A stretch of DNA of 64,000 bases from Kangiella sp. TOML190 (GTDB lineage: Bacteria; Pseudomonadota; Gammaproteobacteria; Enterobacterales; Kangiellaceae), in the NCBI RefSeq assembly GCF_023706045.1, contig NZ_BQYL01000001.1:186001-250000 (forward strand), in the 5' to 3' direction. The translations under genes and the position numbers were made by a program. A model generated the notes under the pieces. The model was not told where the DNA came from. It made no database searches and saw only the letters and a program-made list of their open reading frames with translations. This document shows positions 17,583 to 29,437 of this stretch, piece by piece; positions within the stretch are counted from its first letter, which is position 1, and every line of letters begins with the position of its first letter.

Positions 17583-18194
17583 CCAGCGTTTATCAACCCT
17601 AATATAGCTTGCGGCTTTCTTAAAAATTCAGCGTTAAAATTCGCTGTGACCTATGTCAGCATAAGTATGTCTAGCTTGTCATATTTTCTTCACAGTTTCT
17701 GTGGATAACTTTGGGGAAAAAATCTAGAAAAAGGCTCAAAAGCAACAAATTCAGGGCTTGCAGCACAAACTGTATGTTTTTTAACCAGCAAATACTCTTT
17801 TCCTTAAAAATCAATCGCTTATTAGTTTTTCTATAGCCTTTTTATACACCGCTCATTAAATAAACAGGCGCAAAGCCTTATTTTTAGGGCTCTTGCGCCG
17901 ACTTGTGGATTTTTTTATTGGCTGTCGAAACTTTTTTCACTTTTTTTTTGTAAGTTTCTTGACAAAAACAAAGGTTAATTTCGTGGTAACTGGCAGGTTA
18001 GTAACTACTTTTCTTACAATCAGGTATGAAAAAACTCAGACCCAACAAGCTAATGTTGTAGATTTCATTGAGTAGTTGCTTATGCTTACTTAGCGGACAA
18101 CTTCAGTAGGAGCCAGTAAAAGCGACTGAATACACCTTCGCTTTACATTGTATGCCAAACTCTTATGGCCTATAGTTAAGAAAAGGAGATTTTT
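17583..18194. other. 612-bp AT-rich stretch without a convincing gene
   Basis: No open frame here looks coding; a 60-codon frame at 17893-18075 is Phe-rich and lacks a ribosome binding site. Visible items: one perfect DnaA-box sequence TGTGGATAA (17700-17708), a partial one TGTGGATTT near 17904, TTATACACC near 17841, and a strong hairpin at 17867-17899 (GGCGCAA with TTGCGCC, extended by AGCC with GGGCT) followed 9-16 bases later by a run of T. The hairpin could end a short RNA. The promoter of the next gene occupies the right end. Confidence 0.5.
18148..18176 (+). promoter_or_regulatory. Sigma-70-type promoter for the Cys-rich protein
   Basis: TTGTAT (18148-18153) and TATAGT (18171-18176) are separated by exactly 17 bp. 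The ribosome binding site AAGGAG (18183-18188) and ATG at 18195 follow closely, so the leader would be only about a dozen bases. Confidence 0.55.
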
Positions 18195-19010
18195 ATGTCT
18201 TTAAATAGCATCAGGATAGTTTCCAGCTCTAAATCATCAATTATGTTACCCTTTGCACTAGTTCTTTTTTGTGGACTCCCAGCGCAGAGCAGAGACAAAA
18301 TCTCTGATATTAATACCGAATTAAATTTGAGGAAAAAAAGTTGTGCTGCAGTTACTCCTGCTACCTGGGAGTCTAGCCATTGTCAGCGAGCATGTGGTTT
18401 CGCAAATCCAAGAGCAGACCTCGTACTGATAGAACAGGTGCTAGCCCGCTGCCGAACCGCGCACCAGAATGCTGGAGCGAAGGCTATTGAAGCACCTACA
18501 GTGGCTGACAATAGGGACCGCGCGGCACTGATCGCAGAAGCTAAAGCCAAGAACGACTCTTGCAGGCGCGTTCGACCCGTAACGTCTGCATCCGAACAAT
18601 GTAGCCGCCAATGCGGTGGTGCTGTGGGCCGAGGTGGCATTACCTTAACGGGCAGTTCTGAGTCAGCACAAAAATCGATACAGTTGTGCCGAGAGGCGCA
18701 TGCCGCTGTGGGCTTTTCAACGGCCACTCCACCAAACTTAGAACCAACGGAGCAAGAGAAGATCAACGCAATGCCATCCAATGCAAGTTTTTGCCAACAA
18801 AAGGCACCATCTATAAAGTGTGGCTATGGTGATTTTTCTGATCGTAACGGCCTGTGCGCGTCTTTACGTGCTTGCGCTACCTCTTGTGTAAAACCCAATG
18901 TCAAAACAGAGCTAGAAAGTCGAAGAAAAATCGTTCGTGTGAAGGCGCGTAAGGCTATCGAACACTGTTATGACGCCTATACTCGTACAAAAGCATTGTT
19001 AACGAACTAG
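18195..19010 (+). CDS. Cysteine-rich exported repeat protein, function unknown
   Basis: A 271-residue protein I do not recognise. A signal peptide is likely (hydrophobic SIMLPFALVLFCGLPAQS, residues about 15-32). The mature part holds two clear repeats with the spacing C-x12-C-x3-C-x(18-25)-C-x3-H: one beginning KKSCAAVTP and ending ARCRTAH, the next beginning NDSCRRVRP and ending QLCREAH. A third, looser unit starts at ASFCQQKAP and ends EHCYDAY with six cysteines. The even Cys count per unit suggests disulfide-bonded helical hairpins in the periplasm or outside. It has its own promoter and a strong ribosome binding site. Codon choice looks richer in GC than nearby genes, which hints at acquisition. 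Confidence 0.7.
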   Translation: MSLNSIRIVSSSKSSIMLPFALVLFCGLPAQSRDKISDINTELNLRKKSCAAVTPATWESSHCQRACGFANPRADLVLIEQVLARCRTAHQNAGAKAIEAPTVADNRDRAALIAEAKAKNDSCRRVRPVTSASEQCSRQCGGAVGRGGITLTGSSESAQKSIQLCREAHAAVGFSTATPPNLEPTEQEKINAMPSNASFCQQKAPSIKCGYGDFSDRNGLCASLRACATSCVKPNVKTELESRRKIVRVKARKAIEHCYDAYTRTKALLTN

Positions 19011-19050
19011 TGAGAACTCGCAAACGCCAGTTGAGGTAGATCGACTTTAA

Positions 19051-19182
19051 GCTTACAACAGAGCAATCAAAAAAGTAGACGACAAACTTTCCGATAGTGA
19101 CCAATAGCGAATTAAGGCAGGGTTGTTGGTGCTTTATGCTGTTGCGATAGCGATTTTGGAAGATTTAAGACAGCTCAATTAA
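19051..19182 (+). pseudogene. Short decayed gene remnant
   Basis: In one frame the stretch reads AYNRAIKKVDDKLSDSDQ, an in-frame TAG (19105-19107), then RIKAGLLVLYAVAIAILE and a final TAA. Amphipathic helix followed by a hydrophobic helix looks protein-like, but there is no start codon or ribosome binding site and the upstream frame is closed by a TAA. It is best read as the tail of a lost gene next to the Cys-rich protein. Family unknown. Confidence 0.35.
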
Positions 19183-19221
19183 GCGCCAAACAACAATGTG
19201 TAGTGAAAAACCACTCTGCAT

Positions 19222-19256
19222 AAAAAAGCTCAGACCCTAGGGCCTGAGCTTTATTC
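19222..19256 (-). terminator. Terminator of the S8 peptidase gene (two-way)
   Basis: AAAGCTCAG (19225-19233) pairs with CTGAGCTTT (19244-19252), with an inner CCC/GGG pair. The minus-strand side runs into TTTTTT; on the plus strand the tail is weaker. It sits 15 bp beyond the peptidase stop codon. Confidence 0.85.
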
Positions 19257-19270
19257 TTACAAAACCAATG

Positions 19271-22200
19271 TTAGCTTTGTTTAGCGAAACGCTGTCTGAA
19301 GAAGACTCCTAGCATTGCTAGTAGAATCCAACTGATAGCACCACCACCTGAGCCGCCGTCACCATCGCCTTCTGGATCTGGTGTTACTGGTTGCGCAGCC
19401 ACTTCAACTTGAACGGTTTGTTCAACCGCTAAATTGCCGTCGCTGACCATCACAACAAAGCTGTGCGAACCTGCCGCTAAGCCCGTTACGCTGGTTGCAG
19501 CGGCAGAAGCGTCAGCAATAGTACCGTCGCCTGACCATTCGAAGCTTAAGACATCGCCATCAGGATCATAGCTTGAAGATGCATCCAAGTTAACTGTCTC
19601 ACCTTCTGTGATACTAATTTCGCTAGCCGCAAGTTGCACGACCGGCGCATCGTTCTCACCAGTAATGGTCACTTTAAAGCTAGTGCTCATTGCGTCTGTA
19701 GGCTGATTATTATCACTTACCGTTACGGTCACTTCAGTAACACCACTAAAGTCCTTGTTACCGGTAATGTCAAAGGTTGAACCATTCTCATGGCCGTTGA
19801 CAACCGCAGTGATGCCTTCGCCAGAAACACTGATGGTATTGGAAACATTATCGTTATCCATATAAGCCACTTGAATGCCTTCGATAGTGCCTTCTTCTAT
19901 CATTTCCTGATCATCAATACTAAATAACATGATGTTGGAAGGAACGGTTAAAGTTTCCATCAAGTGTTTAGTTTCAGTTCCATCAAGGTCAAGCTGGGTA
20001 TTGATGACAAAATCTTGGCCAATCGCTTCAGGCTTAACCTTAACTTTAAACTCAACTTCAAAGGCAGTAACTTCTGGCCCATTGTAATCTAAACAAACAA
20101 CCATATCGTCTTGCAGGAAACTATCGAGTCCTCCAAAACCATTATTATCAGGGATGATGCTTTGGTTAATATAGCCATCTACCGGAGCACCTGCCCAAGG
20201 GCTAGCGCCGCCATGAACACCAGCGGTTGCTGTTTTTTCAACGGTTACAGATTGCTGAAACTCAGAACCATTGCCTTGATAATCAGCAAAGTTTAGATTG
20301 TCGTAGGCATAGACAAGTTCATAATCACCCGGGGCACTACTATAATCACGTGCGATAATCAACTGCGCATCCACTTGAGTGCTAGAATTAGGGTTTGGCC
20401 CCCAACCGGCACAACCTCGGAAGTTACAACCCACCCCTTCTAGGTGCTGAAGATTATCCCACTCGATAATAACATGAGTGCCTTGGTTATTTTCATCCAC
20501 CAATTGAACAAAACTAATACCCGAAGATTCGGCTTCGTTTTCACTCGCAACGTAGGGAGCACCAAACTCCATACCTTGAGAGCCAAAACCAGCAACACCA
20601 TACCAAAACACGCCCATATTAGCGAAAGATGGTGCTTTGTAATTGTCATTAAAAGCTACATTTTGGTAAGAACCAAAGAAACCTGGCGCTATACCATGCA
20701 AATCAACCATGCCGTTACCCCAAATATAGAAGCTATTGCTGTTGAAAACATAACCATCATGGTAGTTGTAGAGTGAGTAAGTTTCTCCTTCAGTAGCACG
20801 CGAATCTTGGTAGAGTTCACTCAAGGTTAGCTGTAAAGCAGGCTCACGATTACTTTGCGGAGCGTTTTCTAACGGCATATAACCGTAATCAAACAAATTA
20901 ATGTAACCGCCGTCTTCAACAGGCGTACGACAAGAAGCATCCGTGATCGAGTTAGTAATTAAGTACTCGCGTGCTCGATCGCGACTGTTAGTTTGGATAC
21001 CTGAAAAGCTAAAACTATTTGCTTCTTGAGTAGCTTCACCGTTAATGAAGCGGTTTTGGACTAACTTCACGCTATCGCTAACCAGCTCTAACCCATCAGG
21101 AATTTGCGAAGAAAGATTAAAACTACGATCAGATCCGCTTAAATTAGCCATCACTGATACTTTATAGTCGATCACATCCTCGACAACCGCACCATTTTTA
21201 CTGGATGTCATCCGAACATTGTCTTGACCGCGCATAAAGTTGACTCCAATAATACCTAAATTACCAGAATCATTTTCTCCAGAGCTAAATTCAATCGCGG
21301 TATAATACTTTTCTCCATCAGCAAAAGACGGGGCATTAAGCTGTAAAGCGATATCCGAAAAAGCCTCTTCATCGCTATAGCTAGGAGCTTCTACGGTTAG
21401 ATTATCAGCTGGTTCATTCAATACCACCGCAGTAGCTACTTTGTGTTGAAAGACTGCGTCTTCAATACCTTGATAGCTACGCTTGTTATGGTTGTGTTCT
21501 TGCCATACAACCCAGTAATTACCTGCCTGAGGGTTTGGTATATTACACCAATCTTTAAGCTCAAAAGACTTAGCAACTGATTTACAAATCGCTTCGTTGT
21601 CATAGTCAATCACACCATCTTCATTAAAATCAATACCGACATAAATACCAGCATTACCCACAGGATCTGTATGTTCTTTAGGATCAATGGCTCCTCGACT
21701 TTCAATCACCTCGGCGACAAAGCGCTTTGCATTTTCAGGAACTGTAACCCAGCTTACTTTTACTCGCTCTAAATCTTGCGCAATTTCAAAAAGGTTTTCA
21801 CCGTTTCCATTCACTCGCTCAATCAGCTCAAGCTCTTCAATATTAGCTAAAACTGGTTGATAAGCTTTACTGATAATCTGCGGCGCAACCCCAAAAGCAA
21901 CTTGATTGATACTATGGCTCGTTTTAGATGAGTCAACTTTATATTCAACAACCTCAGGTAGCTTACCACTATCAAGCTGCATCTCGACATTCATCTGAGC
22001 TACTGGAGTAGAAGCATTTTCGTGAGTTAATAAAACTTTCCCGAATACACTTTGACCTCGAGCCGAAGAAATTGCGCTTTGAGAATCTACCCATGAACCG
22101 GTAATGAGCAGTCGCTGAGTTTCGCCAGCCGCCAAAGTGAAGCTTGCTGGAAAAACCTCAACACCAACACTATACTCGCCCGTTTGAGTAGTAACTTCCC

Positions 22201-24565
22201 AGCTGCCATCAACGGTTGCGGTCACTTCGCGCACCCAGCTGCACGACTTGAAACACTTCGAATCAACCATGTTCGGAGTATTCAAAGCACCCAAATTACC
22301 GCCTTGGTAAGGATTCGCAATTTCATAATGTTCTACAGGCACATTCATAATCAAACCCGAATGAATGGCTTTGTCTACTTGCGCAATTCCTGAGCCATAG
22401 AACCAAGGATTAGTTTCATCAGGGCGACCGAATTTATCACCAACTTGATCATTAGCTGTTAATTGCAATGCAGACATTACCTCAGAAGGCGTCCAATTCG
22501 GTCTGGCTTGCTTAATCAAAGCCATAGCACCAGCGATATGGGGGCTGGCCATAGAGGTACCGCTAATCGTATTAAAGGCTGTGGGGCTAATATATTGCGT
22601 AAAAGGTTGATCTTCAGAATAAGCAGAATAAATGTCTGAGCCTGGCGCGGTAATAGACGGTGCTGTTGCTTCTCGATACTCGTCAAGCCAAGCGTAACCT
22701 ATCGAACTAAAGGATGAAATAGCGTCCACCAAGCCTTCATTAACCGATGAACTGGATTGAGTTGCTGGAATCGTGCCCATATGACCATCAGAATCATTTA
22801 ACCAATCCACCATCGTTTGAGCATCATATCTGTCCATCTGCATGGCAGGAATTGTATGTGGTAGTTGTGCATAAAAGTCTTGTGAAGACTCTTCTGTATT
22901 ATAAATTACAACCCCAGCACCGCCGCCAGCAGCAACGTTTGCAGATTTGTCAATTAAAGGAACATCTCCACGCTCACAAAAAACGATCTCGTTGTTGCTA
23001 AATGTACCTGCCATAAAAGGCGAAGAACAAAGTGCATCACCATAATTAGAAGCTAGAACCAAGCTTCCAGTAACACTCTCGATATTAATTCCTTGAATGT
23101 CAGTTCGATAGCTAGGAGGAATTGCCGTCCCATTGTAACTCAAGTTTTCAAAACGCTTTGCGGTTTGTACATTAAAACTTCGCCCATGCTGACTTGAAGC
23201 TACTGATAAAACCCAAGGTGAAACGTGGTTCACCGAACGAAAAGCACCAGCATTACCTGCCGAAGCAGCAACATTAATGCCAGCTTCATGCGCCGCTAAG
23301 AAAGCCAACTCTACAGGATCGTTGTGCGAGTCATAACCACCAGAAATTGAGTAGTTTAAAACATCTACGCCATCTAAAATGGCTTGCTCAATAGCTTGTA
23401 TGGCAACACTTGTAGGACAACCTGCCCATTTATCACCACTATTTCCTGGATAGCAAGCCTGATAAGAAATAACATTAGCATGCGGCGCTATACCGGACAT
23501 TTGATTGATGGTTAAGCCAGTATCAATACCACTACTTGAGATGGCTTGGGCTGGTAATTTGTAAGGAACATCGTACAAGACATTACCAGCGGCGATGCTA
23601 GCAGTATGTGAGCCATGACCTTGGTAATCTTCACCGTTAGCTGGGCGAGACTCTTCAAATTCAGGATCGCTAAAAGCATGGGTTATGCTAGGTGTCGACC
23701 AAACCCCGATCAATTTATCATTACATAAGTTAGCAAATTCTTCAGCGCTACAATCGTGTAAATAATTGCCTGTGCCCAGTGGGTTTTCCACGGTATAACC
23801 ATCGTCACCAGTTGCAGCAAAAGATGGATGTTGAGTATTAATACCAGTATCAATAACCCCTACTAACATCCCCTCGCCCTTAATACCATCAGGGCTTCCA
23901 GCTGTGCTAGTGTCAGCCCAAACCGCTGGAACATTTGTACGCTCAGGGGCAACATCCATTAATAATTCATGTTTAACATTGCGAGAAATATGGATTACTT
24001 CACCAAGCTTAGCTAATTGCTGGGCTTCTTGCTGAGTCATCTCGGCAACTACCGCATTTACCGCAATTTGATGTTGTCTTTTAATATTTAAATTAACGCC
24101 TACCGAACCTGCTTTGCTGATAAAGGCGTTTTGCTTAGACTGTAACTTACTAGTATAAGCGGCGACCGCAGAGTGAGATTTTAGATTGGCACTTCTTGGC
24201 CCCATGGTTTTATTCGAAAATAAATGCTTGGTAGCTCCTTGGCCCTTTGCATCACCAGTGTATAGCGCTGCTGGTGCATCTTTTAGTTGAATGATGTAAG
24301 TATGAACCCCACCAAGATTTTTCTCGGCAGTGAATTTACGTTTTGGGGTTAATTTAACATTGGCCCCATAGCCTTCGAGCAAAGCATCGGTCGAATCCTG
24401 TGTCTGATTTTTACTGGCTTCCACCCGAGCTTTAACCGCTAGAGGGCTAATATCAATCTTTTCCAGCTGATAGTCTTTTTTACCTATCGCGTCGCTGGCA
24501 GCTGCCGTCATTCCTGCTGAATAAACAGCAGCGGCAACAACTGTAGCTATAGTCTTAATTTTCAC
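19271..24565 (-). CDS. Large secreted subtilisin-like (S8) peptidase with GlyGly-CTERM-like tail
   Basis: A 1,764-residue exported serine peptidase. Order: signal peptide (1-about 24), inhibitor I9-type propeptide with THTYIIQLKDAP-like strands (about 85-205), catalytic domain with Asp239 (VGVIDTGI), His317 (GHGSHTAS) and Ser671 (SGTSMASPHIAG). A PA domain fits the long His-Ser insert (about 480-620). Fibronectin-like and beta-rich segments follow, with EF-like DFNEDGVIDYDNE near residue 1000, a cadherin-like repeat with ITGENDAPVV, and a PKD-like domain with DASSSYDPDGD. The end is GGSGGGAISWILLAMLGVFF then RQRF, a Gly-rich, helix, basic tail as in GlyGly-CTERM proteins processed by rhombosortase and exported by type II secretion. 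It is divergent from the MipA/OmpV gene across the shared operator region. Confidence 0.92.
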   Translation of the reverse strand: MKIKTIATVVAAAVYSAGMTAAASDAIGKKDYQLEKIDISPLAVKARVEASKNQTQDSTDALLEGYGANVKLTPKRKFTAEKNLGGVHTYIIQLKDAPAALYTGDAKGQGATKHLFSNKTMGPRSANLKSHSAVAAYTSKLQSKQNAFISKAGSVGVNLNIKRQHQIAVNAVVAEMTQQEAQQLAKLGEVIHISRNVKHELLMDVAPERTNVPAVWADTSTAGSPDGIKGEGMLVGVIDTGINTQHPSFAATGDDGYTVENPLGTGNYLHDCSAEEFANLCNDKLIGVWSTPSITHAFSDPEFEESRPANGEDYQGHGSHTASIAAGNVLYDVPYKLPAQAISSSGIDTGLTINQMSGIAPHANVISYQACYPGNSGDKWAGCPTSVAIQAIEQAILDGVDVLNYSISGGYDSHNDPVELAFLAAHEAGINVAASAGNAGAFRSVNHVSPWVLSVASSQHGRSFNVQTAKRFENLSYNGTAIPPSYRTDIQGINIESVTGSLVLASNYGDALCSSPFMAGTFSNNEIVFCERGDVPLIDKSANVAAGGGAGVVIYNTEESSQDFYAQLPHTIPAMQMDRYDAQTMVDWLNDSDGHMGTIPATQSSSSVNEGLVDAISSFSSIGYAWLDEYREATAPSITAPGSDIYSAYSEDQPFTQYISPTAFNTISGTSMASPHIAGAMALIKQARPNWTPSEVMSALQLTANDQVGDKFGRPDETNPWFYGSGIAQVDKAIHSGLIMNVPVEHYEIANPYQGGNLGALNTPNMVDSKCFKSCSWVREVTATVDGSWEVTTQTGEYSVGVEVFPASFTLAAGETQRLLITGSWVDSQSAISSARGQSVFGKVLLTHENASTPVAQMNVEMQLDSGKLPEVVEYKVDSSKTSHSINQVAFGVAPQIISKAYQPVLANIEELELIERVNGNGENLFEIAQDLERVKVSWVTVPENAKRFVAEVIESRGAIDPKEHTDPVGNAGIYVGIDFNEDGVIDYDNEAICKSVAKSFELKDWCNIPNPQAGNYWVVWQEHNHNKRSYQGIEDAVFQHKVATAVVLNEPADNLTVEAPSYSDEEAFSDIALQLNAPSFADGEKYYTAIEFSSGENDSGNLGIIGVNFMRGQDNVRMTSSKNGAVVEDVIDYKVSVMANLSGSDRSFNLSSQIPDGLELVSDSVKLVQNRFINGEATQEANSFSFSGIQTNSRDRAREYLITNSITDASCRTPVEDGGYINLFDYGYMPLENAPQSNREPALQLTLSELYQDSRATEGETYSLYNYHDGYVFNSNSFYIWGNGMVDLHGIAPGFFGSYQNVAFNDNYKAPSFANMGVFWYGVAGFGSQGMEFGAPYVASENEAESSGISFVQLVDENNQGTHVIIEWDNLQHLEGVGCNFRGCAGWGPNPNSSTQVDAQLIIARDYSSAPGDYELVYAYDNLNFADYQGNGSEFQQSVTVEKTATAGVHGGASPWAGAPVDGYINQSIIPDNNGFGGLDSFLQDDMVVCLDYNGPEVTAFEVEFKVKVKPEAIGQDFVINTQLDLDGTETKHLMETLTVPSNIMLFSIDDQEMIEEGTIEGIQVAYMDNDNVSNTISVSGEGITAVVNGHENGSTFDITGNKDFSGVTEVTVTVSDNNQPTDAMSTSFKVTITGENDAPVVQLAASEISITEGETVNLDASSSYDPDGDVLSFEWSGDGTIADASAAATSVTGLAAGSHSFVVMVSDGNLAVEQTVQVEVAAQPVTPDPEGDGDGGSGGGAISWILLAMLGVFFRQRFAKQS

Positions 24566-24658
24566 CGCGAACTCCTAGTTGTGTTAGTAATACAATATGA
24601 AATATTTTTTTAGCGGCGCTAGGTATAGCACAGAGATATTTAATAAGCGGAGTAAAGA

Positions 24659-24725
24659 TTTGTACGAAATTGTACGATTAATGAACGATCAATGAGTTCG
24701 CCAAACTTTGTACGAATTTGTACGA
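24659..24725. promoter_or_regulatory. Two tandem operator boxes, likely for an OmpR-type regulator
   Basis: Two near-identical 19-bp boxes, TTTGTACGAAATTGTACGA (24659-24677) and TTTGTACGAATTTGTACGA (24707-24725), start 48 bp apart. Each holds two direct TTGTACGA half-sites exactly 10 bp apart, the arrangement bound head-to-tail by OmpR/PhoB-family regulators. Such a regulator is encoded at 26232. The second box ends 14 bp before a TTGGAC that could be a -35 element for the MipA/OmpV gene, which suits activation. The boxes could also act on the divergent S8 peptidase gene. Confidence 0.65.
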
Positions 24726-24821
24726 ATAACCGTTACTGGTTGGACAAGACTAATCGGCCATTGATAGACTAGACGCCACTTATATTAGGAGATGTGCGCC
24801 TTTTATCGCTTACCCATTTTT

Positions 24822-25751
24822 ATGAAATATTTGATAAAATATTTGCTAACTTTTTTCATACTGATCTCATTAGCCTCTGTGGCTGCCGAGCCAGTAGAAG
24901 TTAAGCTGATCTCCAGTGTTAGCAAGAAAATGACTAGTGAGAATCCAAGCGACTCTCTAAAAGAGGCTGATTCAAAAAACTCGGAAGAGCTAGACCATGA
25001 TCAAGTTGCAGTAGGAGAATGGAATTTTTCCTTAAGTCTAGGGTATGGCCAAGTAGAAAGCCTGATCACAGGAGTGGATGACTTCGATCTTTACCTGCTG
25101 CCCAATATCAGTTATTACGGTGAAAAGTTTTATCTAGAAAATACTACTTTAGGATACAGCCTGTTTGAACAGGAAAACTTCTATATTGATCTCGTTGGAC
25201 GCCTCAACGAAGACGGAGTTTATTTTAAACTCGATGATTTCGGCGTCTTTTCAGCACTGGGGGTTCCGCCGCCTGGCCGTGGGCCTAATCCACCCCAACC
25301 CGAAGATGTGGATAGACATCTATCCTATCTAGCCGGTTTGGAGCTGAATTATCAAATTGCCGGCTTTGATCTACGCACGGGTTACTACCACGATATCAGC
25401 GGTGTTCACCATGGTTACGAGCTGGATTTATCGGTTGCGCGCTACTTTACTATCAGCGAACACTGGTCATGGTACTTGGCAGCTAGCGCAACCCATAAAA
25501 GTAAGAAACTACTTAACTATTATTATGGTTTGGATGAAGATGAGAGTTTAACCAGTTTTTTCAGCTATTCACCTAATTCTTCTGGAACCAATTATTACTT
25601 AACGTTAAGTACCGAATACATGATTAATGACGACTGGTCATGGCATGGTTTTGTTAAACGGAACTATTTAGCTGATGAAATTCAGGATAGTTTGATCATA
25701 GAGAGGAAGCATATAGATACCTATTTTCTTGGCGTGAAATACCGATTCTAA
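24822..25751 (+). CDS. MipA/OmpV family outer membrane protein
   Basis: About 309 residues with a signal peptide (MKYLIKYLLTFFILISLASVAA), a short acidic linker, then an outer-membrane beta-barrel of the MipA/OmpV type. The family traits are YLLPNISYYGEKFYLEN near the start, alternating aromatic strands such as YLAGLELNYQIAGFDLRTGYY, and the C-terminal FLGVKYRF ending in Phe. A longer start at 24792 (adding MCAFYRLPIF) is possible; AGGAG at 24787-24791 is too close to it and far from the chosen one, so the start is unsure. It heads the run with the DUF3019 protein, response regulator and kinase and lies directly downstream of the tandem operator boxes. Confidence 0.82.
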   Translation: MKYLIKYLLTFFILISLASVAAEPVEVKLISSVSKKMTSENPSDSLKEADSKNSEELDHDQVAVGEWNFSLSLGYGQVESLITGVDDFDLYLLPNISYYGEKFYLENTTLGYSLFEQENFYIDLVGRLNEDGVYFKLDDFGVFSALGVPPPGRGPNPPQPEDVDRHLSYLAGLELNYQIAGFDLRTGYYHDISGVHHGYELDLSVARYFTISEHWSWYLAASATHKSKKLLNYYYGLDEDESLTSFFSYSPNSSGTNYYLTLSTEYMINDDWSWHGFVKRNYLADEIQDSLIIERKHIDTYFLGVKYRF

Positions 25752-25770
25752 GACTTATGAATAAGGGCTT

Positions 25771-26226
25771 ATGAATAAAACGGGGAGGACTCTTAATAAT
25801 TTTTGTCTCTTGTTGCTAACAGGGATAGGACTTCTTTATGCCGCAAATGACGCCCAAGCTGCCAGCCCTTGGAAAAAAAACCCACGTGAATCAAGAAGCG
25901 ATTCTGCCAAACTGGCTATCACACCTTCTGTATGCGTTATTAAACAAAAGGGCGATAGTTGCCAGCAAAGGCTCACCCTCTTATATCGCAGCAAACAACG
26001 GCATAATATTTGCATTTACCACTCTTTTAGTAACGAACCTATTTGGTGTGACAACCAAGTCAAACAAGCCGATTTGGAAGTGACTATTACGGCCAGCAAA
26101 AATATCAAACTAACGGCGAAAAATAATGATAATAACGACACTCTTGCCACAGCAACATTTGCTCTTAGCGTTTTTCAACCCGTGAAAAAAAGAAAGCGTC
26201 GTCATTACGGCATAGGTATACTGTAG
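25771..26226 (+). CDS. DUF3019 family exported protein
   Basis: A 151-residue protein with a signal peptide (cleavage near AQA-ASPWKK) and the DUF3019 pattern: ITPSVCVIKQKGDSCQQRLTL, then HNICIYHS and PIWCDNQ, giving four conserved cysteines that probably pair. It ends in a basic tail KKRKRRHYG. DUF3019 proteins have no proven function; they occur next to MipA/OmpV proteins and an OmpR-type two-component system in several marine Gammaproteobacteria, so a role as periplasmic signal input or envelope stress factor is a reasonable guess. It starts 19 bp after the MipA/OmpV gene and ends 5 bp before the response regulator. Confidence 0.8.
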   Translation: MNKTGRTLNNFCLLLLTGIGLLYAANDAQAASPWKKNPRESRSDSAKLAITPSVCVIKQKGDSCQQRLTLLYRSKQRHNICIYHSFSNEPIWCDNQVKQADLEVTITASKNIKLTAKNNDNNDTLATATFALSVFQPVKKRKRRHYGIGIL

Positions 26227-26231
26227 TAGCC

Positions 26232-26927
26232 ATGTTAGATTGCAAAATACTCTTAATTGAAGATGACCTGCCGCTGGCAGAATTGATCCAGGAATACTTG
26301 GAGGCTCAAGGGTATAGGCTCAAACATCTGGCGAAAGGGCTTGATGTCCACCAGCTAGCCGATGATGAAAATTTTGATTTGATTCTATGCGATGTGATGC
26401 TACCCGATATCGATGGCTTTAACTTAAATGGCATACTGCAAGAAAAATTCCAATGCCCTATTATCTTTTTAACCGCGCTTAGCGATGACGAAGATCAAAT
26501 TAAAGGTCTAGAGCTAGGAGCAATTGATTACATCGTTAAACCTGTAGAGCCCAATGTACTGTTGGCGCGTATTCGGGCTAACTTAAGAAAAAATCAAAGT
26601 CCAGTTTCTGCTGAAAACATTACCATTTCTGATCTAACGCTTGATAAACATAAGCAAGTTGCAACGCTCAACGGCTCAGCGCTGGATCTAACTAGCCAAG
26701 ATTTTGAATTACTCTGGATTTTTGCCCAAAACCAAGGGAAAATTTTATCCCGTGAATTTTTATTTCAAGCCATTATTGGCCGCGAATATAATGGACTTGA
26801 TCGAACAGTTGATGCAAGAACCAGCCGTCTACGCAAAAAAATAGAAGACTTTAATGTTCCTGGTTTAGTGATCCGGACGGTTTGGGGTAAAGGTTATTTA
26901 TTCACCTACACCAAGGCTCTCGGCTAG
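26232..26927 (+). CDS. OmpR/PhoB-family response regulator
   Basis: A 231-residue two-domain regulator. The receiver domain has the acidic pair Glu10/Asp11-Asp12, phospho-acceptor Asp54 in LILCDVMLPDIDGF, Thr in FLTALSDD and Lys in DYIVKPVEP. The C-terminal winged helix (about 130-228) ends with the typical RTVDARTSRLRKKIE and IRTVWGKGYLF. It is translationally close to the kinase gene (2 bp gap). The TTGTACGA tandem boxes at 24659-24725 have the spacing expected for this family, so it probably controls its own operon and perhaps the S8 peptidase; this is inference. Confidence 0.92.
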   Translation: MLDCKILLIEDDLPLAELIQEYLEAQGYRLKHLAKGLDVHQLADDENFDLILCDVMLPDIDGFNLNGILQEKFQCPIIFLTALSDDEDQIKGLELGAIDYIVKPVEPNVLLARIRANLRKNQSPVSAENITISDLTLDKHKQVATLNGSALDLTSQDFELLWIFAQNQGKILSREFLFQAIIGREYNGLDRTVDARTSRLRKKIEDFNVPGLVIRTVWGKGYLFTYTKALG

Positions 26928-26929
26928 CC

Positions 26930-28165
26930 ATGAAGTTTCAGTTTTACCGCTTTTACGCGCTTATTATTTTGGCCGCTGCGTTATTGGTTTGGTCTTTTAA
27001 TTCCATTTACGAAGCAACCCAAACGCCCAATAGCAGTTACCAAGTTGAAGTAGATGACTTAATCCAACGTTTTCACCATGACAGCGATTTGTCTGCCGAT
27101 AAAGAGCAACGATTACCTACTTTTGAAATTATACAATCGCAAACGCTAGCCCTACCGGAAGATTTAGCCGCAATGCTCGAACAAGGAAAAACCATCGCCA
27201 TTGCAGATAATAACAACCGAACTTTTTATTACAAAAAAAACGATGCCGAATTACTAACTCGCTTCGGCCCCTTTGAGCACCAATCCAACGATTCGCAATT
27301 TGAACCTTATGTGATCCCATTGTTTTACAGCAGCCTAGCTTGCTTGTTGTTGTTTTTAATGCGACCAATTTTTCGTGACTTGCAGCAGCTACAACAAGAT
27401 GCGCTAGAATTCGGGCGTAAGCCAGTCGCCATGCAACGGTCTATTAAGGAATCATCCAATATCTACCCCTTGGCCAATTCCTTTTACGGTATGTCCAACA
27501 AGATCTTAAACTTTATTCAGATGAACAAAGATTTGTCGCGCACTATTTCTCATGAAATCCGAACTCCACTCGCGCGCATGAAATTTATGCTAGAAATTAT
27601 TGAGCCAAACATCAGTGCCAACCAAAAAATGCGTATGAAAAATGATATTGCGGAAATTGAATCACTGGTTAACGATTATCTATCTTTTGCCAAAGTTGAG
27701 AATGAAACAGATAACATTCATAGAGAGTTTCATTGCATGAAAACCTTTTTACAGGAAATTTATGATAAGTTTTCCATCTATCAAGATCAGATCTTAATTG
27801 ACTGCCATAGTGAGGATGTTCAGGCTTATTTCGACAAAGGGTCTATGTCAATTGCTGTGCAGAATTTGCTAACCAATGCTTTGCGCTTTTCTAAAGAAAA
27901 AATCAGTTTGGACTTCTACCTTGATCAAGAGCAGTGCTTGTTGTCAGTGGAAGATGACGGTCCTGGGGTGGGTGATAACGCCGCTAAACTGATGCAACCT
28001 TTTAGCCGTGAAAATGCTAAAGAGCAAAACCATAAAGGCTTTGGTCTAGGGCTTTATATTGTACGAAAAGTTGCGATCTGGCACGAGGGTGAGTTTACGA
28101 TTTCGCAGTCCAGTAAACTTGGTGGCGCCAAAATGCAGATCCGCTGGCCTAACCAAAGCAAATAA
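26930..28165 (+). CDS. Sensor histidine kinase of the OmpR-type two-component system
   Basis: A 411-residue inner-membrane kinase. One transmembrane helix at about residues 7-25, a small periplasmic sensor domain of roughly 100 residues, and a second helix at about 128-146. The phosphorylated His208 is in SHEIRTPLARMKF. ATP-binding boxes follow: NLLTNALRFS (N), VEDDGPGVG (G1) and GFGLGLYIVRKV (G2). The layout resembles RstB/QseC-like sensors. No clear HAMP consensus can be seen by eye, though the linker of about 50 residues leaves room for one. The signal is unknown; the DUF3019 protein encoded upstream may be involved. Confidence 0.9.
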   Translation: MKFQFYRFYALIILAAALLVWSFNSIYEATQTPNSSYQVEVDDLIQRFHHDSDLSADKEQRLPTFEIIQSQTLALPEDLAAMLEQGKTIAIADNNNRTFYYKKNDAELLTRFGPFEHQSNDSQFEPYVIPLFYSSLACLLLFLMRPIFRDLQQLQQDALEFGRKPVAMQRSIKESSNIYPLANSFYGMSNKILNFIQMNKDLSRTISHEIRTPLARMKFMLEIIEPNISANQKMRMKNDIAEIESLVNDYLSFAKVENETDNIHREFHCMKTFLQEIYDKFSIYQDQILIDCHSEDVQAYFDKGSMSIAVQNLLTNALRFSKEKISLDFYLDQEQCLLSVEDDGPGVGDNAAKLMQPFSRENAKEQNHKGFGLGLYIVRKVAIWHEGEFTISQSSKLGGAKMQIRWPNQSK

Positions 28166-28207
28166 CTACCCCAGCGCTTTGCCTTGACCAAGCAATATTA
28201 AGACAAA

Positions 28208-29437
28208 TTAAGCGAAAAACCAGTAACTTAATAAAATTGCGGCAACAATACCCGCCAAGTCAGCAATTAAACCACAACCCAATGCATGGCGGATTTTCTT
28301 AATACCTACAGCACCGAAATACACCGTTAGAACGTAAAAAGTGGTCTCTGTGCTACCTTGAATAATCGCTACCAATTTACCTGCAAAAGAGTCGACTCCT
28401 TGCGTTTCCATGGTTTCGAGCATCATGGCTCGCGCGCCGCTGCCGCTAAAAGGACGCATTAAAGCGGTTGGAATAGCATCTACAAAATCAGTATCGCCGC
28501 CCAAGCTGGATACCAATTTAGCCACCAATGCGGAAAAGAAATCAATGACACCGGATACTCGTAAAGCACCAATGGCTGTGAGCATTGCAACCAAATAAGG
28601 AATAATGGTCACCGCAACCTTAAAGCCCTCCTTAGCACCTTCAACAAAAGTTTCATACACCGCAACCTTTTTGCGCCAACCAAAAAGTAAAATACCAACA
28701 ATCGCCAACATCAATAAGAAGTTTCCCATTGCTGAGCTAATTTCGGTCATTTGTTCAGCTGGCAGCCTTACTAAAGCCCAAACTATTAACCCGATCACTC
28801 CTATAAATACGGCCGCATAAGCTGCTATAACTCGATTAAATAACGATATTTTTTGCATAATTGCCACGGCTAACAGACCAAAAAAAGTCGAGGCGCAGGT
28901 TGCTAACAATAGGGGTAAAAACACTGCGGCCGGATCAGCCGCACCCATTTGCGTTCGATAGAGCAAAATGGTGATTGGAATGATGGTAACTGCTGAGGTA
29001 TTTAACACCAAAAATAAAATTTGTGCATTTGAAGCAGTATCTTTTGTCGGATTAAGTTGTTGCAACTGCTCCATAGCTCGAATCCCCATAGGGGTAGCAG
29101 CATTATCCAAACCTAGCATATTGGCCGCCATATTCATGCTGATAGAACCTAGCGCAGGATGCCCAGCGGGCACTTGCGGCATTAACTTTCGGAATAATGG
29201 CGATAAAGCTTTTGCCAATAAATTGACCAAACCACTTTTTTCCGCGATTTTTAATAAACCAAGCCAAAAGGCTAGAATCCCTATCAAGCCGATGGAAATT
29301 TCTACACTCAGTTTAGCCATATCGAATATAGCTTTAACCAAGTCGGGAAACGATTGGCTATCACCGCCCACTAGCCACTGATAAAGCGCTAATACAAAAG
29401 CAATCACAAAAAACAACAGCCACAGGATATTTAGCAT
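28208..29437 (-). CDS. Nucleoside-recognition (Gate) domain membrane protein, SpmA-SpmB-like fusion
   Basis: A 409-residue, very hydrophobic inner-membrane protein holding two Gate domains in tandem. The N-terminal half has GLLKIAEKSGLV and SISMNMAANMLGLDNAATP, the SpmA signature. The C-terminal half has MRPFSGSGARAMMLE and IQGSTETTFYVLTVYFGAVG, the SpmB signature. In Bacillus the two halves are separate proteins needed for spore core dehydration; in Gram-negative bacteria fused forms are common and their role is unknown. It converges with the histidine kinase gene across a 42-bp gap. Confidence 0.87.
   Translation of the reverse strand: MLNILWLLFFVIAFVLALYQWLVGGDSQSFPDLVKAIFDMAKLSVEISIGLIGILAFWLGLLKIAEKSGLVNLLAKALSPLFRKLMPQVPAGHPALGSISMNMAANMLGLDNAATPMGIRAMEQLQQLNPTKDTASNAQILFLVLNTSAVTIIPITILLYRTQMGAADPAAVFLPLLLATCASTFFGLLAVAIMQKISLFNRVIAAYAAVFIGVIGLIVWALVRLPAEQMTEISSAMGNFLLMLAIVGILLFGWRKKVAVYETFVEGAKEGFKVAVTIIPYLVAMLTAIGALRVSGVIDFFSALVAKLVSSLGGDTDFVDAIPTALMRPFSGSGARAMMLETMETQGVDSFAGKLVAIIQGSTETTFYVLTVYFGAVGIKKIRHALGCGLIADLAGIVAAILLSYWFFA

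Follow-up and report, generated by a model that had tools for sequence, protein, structure and literature searches.

In Escherichia coli the response regulator RstA recognizes the RstA box, TACATNTNGTTACA, which carries tandem TACA sites, and in Klebsiella pneumoniae the RstA domains bind DNA head-to-tail, with R199 and R207 as contact arginines (PMC4117788). Related regulation of the cell envelope has been described in several other bacteria. The Burkholderia regulator BesR is RstA-like (45% to RstA) and its direct repeat has been likened to the RstA box; the BesRS system has a MipA/OmpV gene in its regulon and responds to envelope disturbance and to polymyxin (PMC9426598). Secretion of several type II-dependent proteins is reduced in rstA and rstB mutants of Photobacterium damselae (PMC6491958). 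In the Harveyi clade of Vibrio, RstAB is encoded beside envelope genes under its control, dgkA-eptA (PMC12064563). Finally, MipA and MipB of Pseudomonas aeruginosa are envelope proteins activated by ParR, proposed to act as polymyxin co-sensors that activate ParS (PMC10936184).

The locus that we describe here belongs to Kangiella sp. TOML190, and lies within a stretch of 64,000 nucleotides (positions 186,001 to 250,000 of contig NZ_BQYL01000001.1), which we term the window. It comprises a pair of boxes placed between the gene of a giant S8 peptidase and an operon for a MipA/OmpV protein, a DUF3019 protein, a response regulator and a sensor kinase (Table 1). Our reading, to which we give a probability of about 0.75, is that both boxes would be operators of the RstA-like regulator encoded in the operon, box 2 serving the operon and box 1 the peptidase gene, with MipA and the DUF3019 protein as co-sensors.

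Table 1. Features of the locus, in window coordinates
Feature	Position	Strand	Basis or description
Block absent from empty sites (approximate extent)	18019-28206	.	About 10 kb; BLAST
Giant S8 peptidase, 1764 aa	19271-24565	-	S8, PA and PKD/Ig-like domains, GlyGly-CTERM-like tail
Candidate minus-10 of the peptidase gene	24622-24627	-	TATACC, 5/6 positions invariant in a conserved patch
Box 1, RstA-type, peptidase side	24660-24677	-	TTGTACGAAATTGTACGA; core TACA-N6-TACA at 24661-24674
Box 2, same motif, operon side	24708-24725	-	TTGTACGAATTTGTACGA; core at 24709-24722
Candidate operon promoter	24741-24770	+	TGGACA at 24741-24746, 18-bp spacer, extended minus-10 TGATAGACT
MipA/OmpV family outer-membrane protein	24792-25751	+	Open reading frame, Pfam
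DUF3019 protein, probably exported	25771-26226	+	Pfam; modelled as all-beta
RstA-like OmpR/PhoB response regulator	26232-26927	+	NCBIfam, Pfam, tree
RstB-like sensor histidine kinase	26930-28165	+	NCBIfam, Pfam

The original prediction, made from the letters of the window, had described two 19-bp boxes with a single difference between them, their starts separated by 48 bp and their half-sites repeating after 10 bp. All of this is exact in the sequence, the 19 bp being the 18 bp of each box with the preceding T, and both distances were reproduced. On the plus strand the boxes share the pattern TTGTACGA-NN-TTGTACGA; read on the minus strand, which is the better orientation for the motif, each becomes TACA-N6-TACA. 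The 48 bp from box to box do not make a whole number of helical turns. When the window was scanned with the 18-bp pattern (16 fixed bases), allowing up to 2 mismatches, the two boxes were the 2 matches found, against 0.04 expected from shuffled sequences. They are also the sole exact matches in the genome (2,454,686 bases, one contig), where the next-best site has 2 mismatches and falls within a reading frame of 460 aa, and where relaxing the scan to 3 mismatches gives nothing but noise (a total of 7 matches, against 27 for the reversed control pattern). No wider regulon was thus found in this genome: there is no third exact box, and the single 2-mismatch site lies in an open reading frame.

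Pfam returned the genes in the order that had been claimed for the operon, namely MipA, DUF3019, Response_reg with Trans_reg_C, and HisKA with HATPase_c, and placed a Peptidase_S8 gene on the opposite side of the boxes, again as foreseen. The MipA score (130.5 bits, for a cut-off of 24.2) leaves us with an outer-membrane barrel encoded together with a two-component system; its gene may start at 24822 instead of 24792. The predicted structure of the DUF3019 protein is all-beta over residues 47-131, at modest confidence (mean pLDDT 69.5). A fold search with this model gave generic beta-sandwich matches and none at E<=0.001 in the PDB, while the sequence profile had no match at E<=1 among solved structures. 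Many DUF3019 frames in distant genomes end with W-x-x-F or W-x-x-Y after a run of basic residues; that of the window ends with YGIGIL. A full-text literature search for DUF3019, with subscription papers largely outside its scope, found no paper, and no paper on the MipA-DUF3019-RR-HK cassette appeared among the matches listed, as judged from titles and the starts of abstracts.

The regulator had been left unnamed in the original prediction. We can now give it a family: on the grounds of sequence it is RstA-like, though far under the NCBI cut-off for RstA, and the motif is the RstA box. This rests jointly on the box match, on the motif of distant cassettes described below and on a branch shared with E. 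coli RstA. Its Pfam domains (Response_reg, 88.3 bits; Trans_reg_C, 73.4 bits, both above cut-off) make an OmpR/PhoB architecture. Against the NCBIfam models it scores 175.2 bits for RstA, below the equivalog cut-off of 330 and with VanR a mere 0.5 bit behind (174.7); the kinase scores 194.1 bits for RstB, likewise below its equivalog cut-off (478), EnvZ coming next at 130.3, 64 bits behind. Identity over the aligned parts to the E. coli proteins is 39% for the regulator and RstA, and 28% for the kinase and RstB. A maximum-likelihood tree of 47 cassette regulators with 12 E. coli regulators has a branch (support 100/97) with E. coli RstA and all 47 cassette regulators on one side, and OmpR, CpxR and nine further E. 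coli regulators on the other. RstA is nested among the cassette regulators rather than beside them, at lower support (86/96), and since ParR, BesR and CarR were left out of the tree the RstA-like group may extend past DUF3019 cassettes. Equivalents of the K. pneumoniae arginines R199 and R207 appear to be kept in the regulator alignment, with residues mapped by hand. A protein-pattern search of genome contigs with the regulator as query gave 8 loci, 3 in Kangiella and 5 distant ones that added nothing to the analysis.

Conservation of the boxes in front of orthologous cassettes was a test on which the original prediction had staked itself, and the proposed motif withstood it. An orthologue of the regulator is present in 7 of 20 Kangiella genomes (own included), with 75-81% identity to that of the window, the next regulators among the matches listed having at most 44%; one of the seven genomes, G002, is just 55% complete. 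Paired boxes precede the orthologous cassette in 7/7, spaced by 48 or 49 bp, the first box having one mismatch at its last base in four of them. A scan of the other 13 genomes, allowing 1 mismatch at most, gave no box pair, so that pair and regulator occupy the same 7/20 genomes (Fisher 1.3e-5, uncorrected for phylogeny). Lone 1-mismatch matches to a box were seen in G014, G018 and G008, and G010 has two further such matches. Aligned over seven Kangiella species, box 1 (columns 24659-24677) is invariant at 15/19 positions and box 2 (24707-24725) at 18/19, which makes 33/38 for the boxes against 31/125 for four flanking segments; the spacer between boxes has 8/29, and the peptidase side 11/56 and 9/31. 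Conservation resumes after box 2, where TTACTGGTTGGACA (24733-24746) is invariant at 14/14 positions and the minus-10 region (24763-24770) at 7/8. The minus-10 hexamer of the candidate operon promoter, TAGACT (24765-24770), has TG in front. A consensus promoter scan of 24560-24830 reported this one site (TGGACA/TAGACT); as 1.1 were expected, the scan alone does not rise above chance. In the window 42 bases separate the box 2 core from TAGACT, and in the six other Kangiella species there is 1 fewer.

DUF3019 genes are sparse, found in 25 of 61 genomes of relatives and in 9 of 369 drawn from the class (own included in both). Some genomes have two or three, for example G022, G025, G028 and G051. 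Besides the window, 46 loci were gathered. DUF3019 has a regulator gene no more than 500 bp away in 45 of them, the exception being L107 (2434 bp), and a kinase gene no more than 1600 bp away in 45, the exception being L079 (1726 bp); in both outliers the regulator or kinase is slightly further away, still in the same cluster. A tblastn match to MipA lies within 700 bp in 36/46; eight of the ten remaining loci have a frame of MipA size in place (judged on size alone), and L079 and L086 have none. DUF3019 marks a cassette of the MipA-DUF3019-RR-HK type in several families (L065-L093, L103-L112).

Do these cassettes also carry the box? A scan of relatives that carry the cassette was the check named in the original prediction. 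Of 39 non-Kangiella loci gathered, 36 entered our search, namely those with a mipA-like frame and 300 bp of sequence before it (L079, L086 and L093, with no full mipA-like frame upstream, were excluded; L104 and L106 have uncertain start codons). An expectation-maximization search from random starts, with no box as seed, converged on a related element, TTACAnTTTTTnACAatt, with a log-likelihood of 189.5; five dinucleotide shuffles, given 60 starts as for the real set, reached 64.0-68.7, and composition-only shuffles, with 25 starts, 59.1, 60.8 and 69.4. The controls, 180 regions taken upstream of other genes in these loci, were scored with the model fitted to all 36 sequences. In leave-one-out scoring, where the model was refitted without the tested sequence from the overall consensus, 27/36 cassettes exceed the 95th percentile of controls and 17/36 the 99th. 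Nine fall under the 95% level (L068, L072, L073, L090, L091, L092, L106, L111 and L112), including L112, a peptidase-linked cassette from another genus. Applied to the Kangiella boxes, the distant motif gives 12.9 bits for box 1 and 5.1 for box 2, the control 95th percentile standing at 10.4.

In 29/36 distant cassettes the highest-scoring site lies on the plus strand, whereas each of the Kangiella boxes matches on the minus strand. For the 28 plus-strand top sites above 10 bits, the median start is 96 bp upstream of mipA. Among the 25 distant cassettes with a plus-strand site above 12 bits, 11 have 38-41 bases between the 18-mer and the best minus-10 (binomial 7e-6, for a range picked after the peak had been seen). 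Measured from the TACA core, these gaps are most often 42 bases, as for box 2 in the window, a spacing that favours box 2 as an activator site of the operon at about -60. In L107, where the order is regulator, kinase, mipA, DUF3019, strong sites still stand before mipA, so that the element seems tied to mipA and not to the regulator gene.

On the other side of the boxes we find the peptidase. Its C-terminal tail scores 14.0 against the GlyGly-CTERM model, for a cut-off of 15.5, and the genome encodes a rhombosortase above cut-off (G000:C1:1732882-1733337); the tail and the rhombosortase together make a cell-surface peptidase a plausible output. Full-length orthologues (59-71% identity) exist in 8/20 Kangiella genomes, own included. 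The same eight carry DUF3019 and the other 12 have neither. They are the seven genomes with the box pair, of which G002 has an additional weaker match (41%), together with G018. In this latter genome the peptidase lies, at another genomic site (L064, 327-8960), beside a divergent DUF3019 cassette whose regulator has 42% identity, and which has no canonical box, a degenerate repeat, TTTGTCGACTTTTGTATC, being all that is present. It looks as if the sensing half next to the peptidase had been exchanged. Other S8 matches in the family are partial and away from the places of DUF3019.

The S8 peptidase gene and the MipA-DUF3019-RR-HK operon form one block, a finding which is new here. When six empty sites were compared with the window by BLAST, homology stopped at 17720-18018 and restarted at 28207-28215. 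In the window and five relatives (L058-L062) the block is bordered by a methyltransferase gene and a gate-domain gene, which adjoin directly in 10/10 block-free sites examined. These stem from 10 of the 14 Kangiella genomes that lack the block at this place, eight without the block and two with the block elsewhere (G019, G009, G012 and G003 were left out). The block sits at different genomic places in G006 and G018. One empty site between the methyltransferase and gate-domain genes, L134 of G017, holds the box-like TGTACACTTTTTGTAC. Within the block of the window, 18195-19010 on the plus strand is a cysteine-containing frame of 271 aa with no Pfam match, and tblastn over the block regions examined in other Kangiella gave no match to it.

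The position of the boxes between the peptidase gene and the operon, together with the joint presence or absence of the two in marine Kangiella bacteria, suggests a sensor that governs its own operon as well as the peptidase. Box 1, as predicted from the co-occurrence, the common block and the presence of a box on each side, probably drives the peptidase gene. One may argue, however, that both boxes serve the operon alone, box 1 being auxiliary and the peptidase separately controlled. We consider this unlikely, but it has its merits: box-like elements stand before mipA in distant cassettes with no peptidase as neighbour (in the stretches of distant loci, tblastn with the peptidase of the window found no match except in L112), and no clear minus-35 could be recognized for the peptidase. 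TATACC, which is 33 bases away from the box 1 core, is a candidate for its minus-10 that we deduce from conservation, and the consensus scan of 24560-24830 did not pick it up. Against such an operon-only arrangement stands first the strict co-inheritance just described, both present or both absent over 20 Kangiella genomes, in one block. Furthermore, the pairing recurs in another genus of the family, in two genomes that both have TGTA-N6-TGTA boxes between the peptidase and the mipA side: in G428 a peptidase (36%) diverges from a cassette whose regulator groups with those of Kangiella (99/87), although its branch is very long and was flagged as unsure by the program; in G031 a peptidase (38%) faces what is by eye a mipA-like start at the end of a contig, the rest of a cassette being found at the start of another contig. 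Finally, five distant cassettes with a divergent neighbour (L075, L076, L077, L084 and L085) have a second, opposite-strand site of at least 12 bits, and three more (L078, L083 and L089) have a weak one (8.0-9.3 bits); L109 and L110 have a second opposite-strand site too. Since L066 and L067, whose upstream gene is co-directional, have second sites as well, this pattern is suggestive only. Pfam analysis of 10 chosen neighbours identified four divergent PF09826 beta-propeller proteins and one divergent DUF2860 protein, the remainder being four co-directional upstream TonB-dependent receptors and one long repeat-domain protein.

A different regulator might bind the boxes, for instance a repressor of the TetR or MarR type with a taste for the GTAC palindrome, whose core is indeed internal to the TTGTACGA half-sites. 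We find this quite improbable: the distant motif drops the palindrome and keeps the TACA tandem at a 10-bp pitch, and in Kangiella the paired boxes track the cassette's own regulator. Tandem repeats about one helical turn apart are typical of OmpR/PhoB regulators. As for the repeats being remnants of the mobility of the block, such as recombination or transposase sites, the different locations in G006 and G018 would fit, but the idea is scarcely credible: the boxes sit within the block instead of at its ends and keep a constant distance to a conserved stretch that resembles a promoter, and the block proteins scanned include no integrase or transposase.

We come back, then, to dual control by an RstA-like regulator. 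In this scheme a phosphorylated dimer would bind each box head-to-tail, with one subunit per TACA half-site. From box 2, some 60 bp before the likely start, it would activate rather than repress mipA-DUF3019-rr-hk, creating positive autoregulation; from box 1 it would act on the divergent gene of the surface peptidase. MipA and the DUF3019 protein might be envelope co-sensors for the RstB-like kinase, with the peptidase as the output. Weighing against this scheme are the scores of regulator and kinase below the NCBI cut-offs, the lower support for the nesting of RstA, the poor score of box 2 with the distant motif, the minus-strand orientation of both boxes, the nine distant cassettes under the 95% level, the 48-bp spacing, the missing clear minus-35 of the peptidase gene, and G018, where a peptidase stands beside a divergent cassette with no canonical box. 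The original prediction spoke of a change in envelope porin; for MipA/OmpV a co-sensor role is at least as plausible, by analogy with MipA and MipB of P. aeruginosa (PMC10936184).

It is tempting to go further and to see here a portable block for envelope surveillance and, in DUF3019 cassettes at large, a general sensing module built on the RstA box. MipA and DUF3019 would sense a membrane-active peptide or a similar attack and switch on the RstAB-like pair, and through box 1 the giant surface-anchored subtilase would be induced and would destroy the attacker; each lineage would attach its own divergent output gene to the module, a peptidase, a beta-propeller protein or others. This combined picture is speculative and, in our opinion, rather unlikely to hold as a whole. 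As peptidase and cassette are present or absent together, removal of a single locus would suffice to test the chain from sensing to output.

How does the Kangiella locus compare with systems already described? The Vibrio Harveyi clade RstAB has other targets, and neither MipA nor OmpV appears in the available portion of PMC12064563. With P. damselae RstAB the common point would be the route, as a GlyGly-CTERM peptidase would also exit by type II secretion; the cargo is different, and the accessible text of PMC6491958 does not use the term 'RstA box'. BesRS was named for its control of a beta-lactamase, and what is available of PMC9426598 mentions neither DUF3019 nor a peptidase. ParR/ParS with MipA/MipB offers the same association of a MipA/OmpV barrel and a second envelope protein with a two-component system; as far as the consulted part of that work goes, MipB is a lipoprotein with a beta-lactamase fold, whereas the second gene in Kangiella encodes a small DUF3019 protein, modelled as all-beta. 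What the Kangiella pair has in common with RstA/RstB of E. coli and Klebsiella is a regulator placed together with RstA in the tree (39% identity), a kinase nearest to RstB among NCBI families, and the TACA-N6-TACA element. It differs in falling under the NCBI equivalog cut-offs and in being encoded with mipA and DUF3019, and it is predicted to act on its own operon and, probably, on a peptidase. The two-component cassette marked by DUF3019 thereby gains a candidate operator that can be tested and is linked, across several families of Gammaproteobacteria, to the RstA box, and a likely output of an RstB-like kinase receives a name, a giant surface peptidase.
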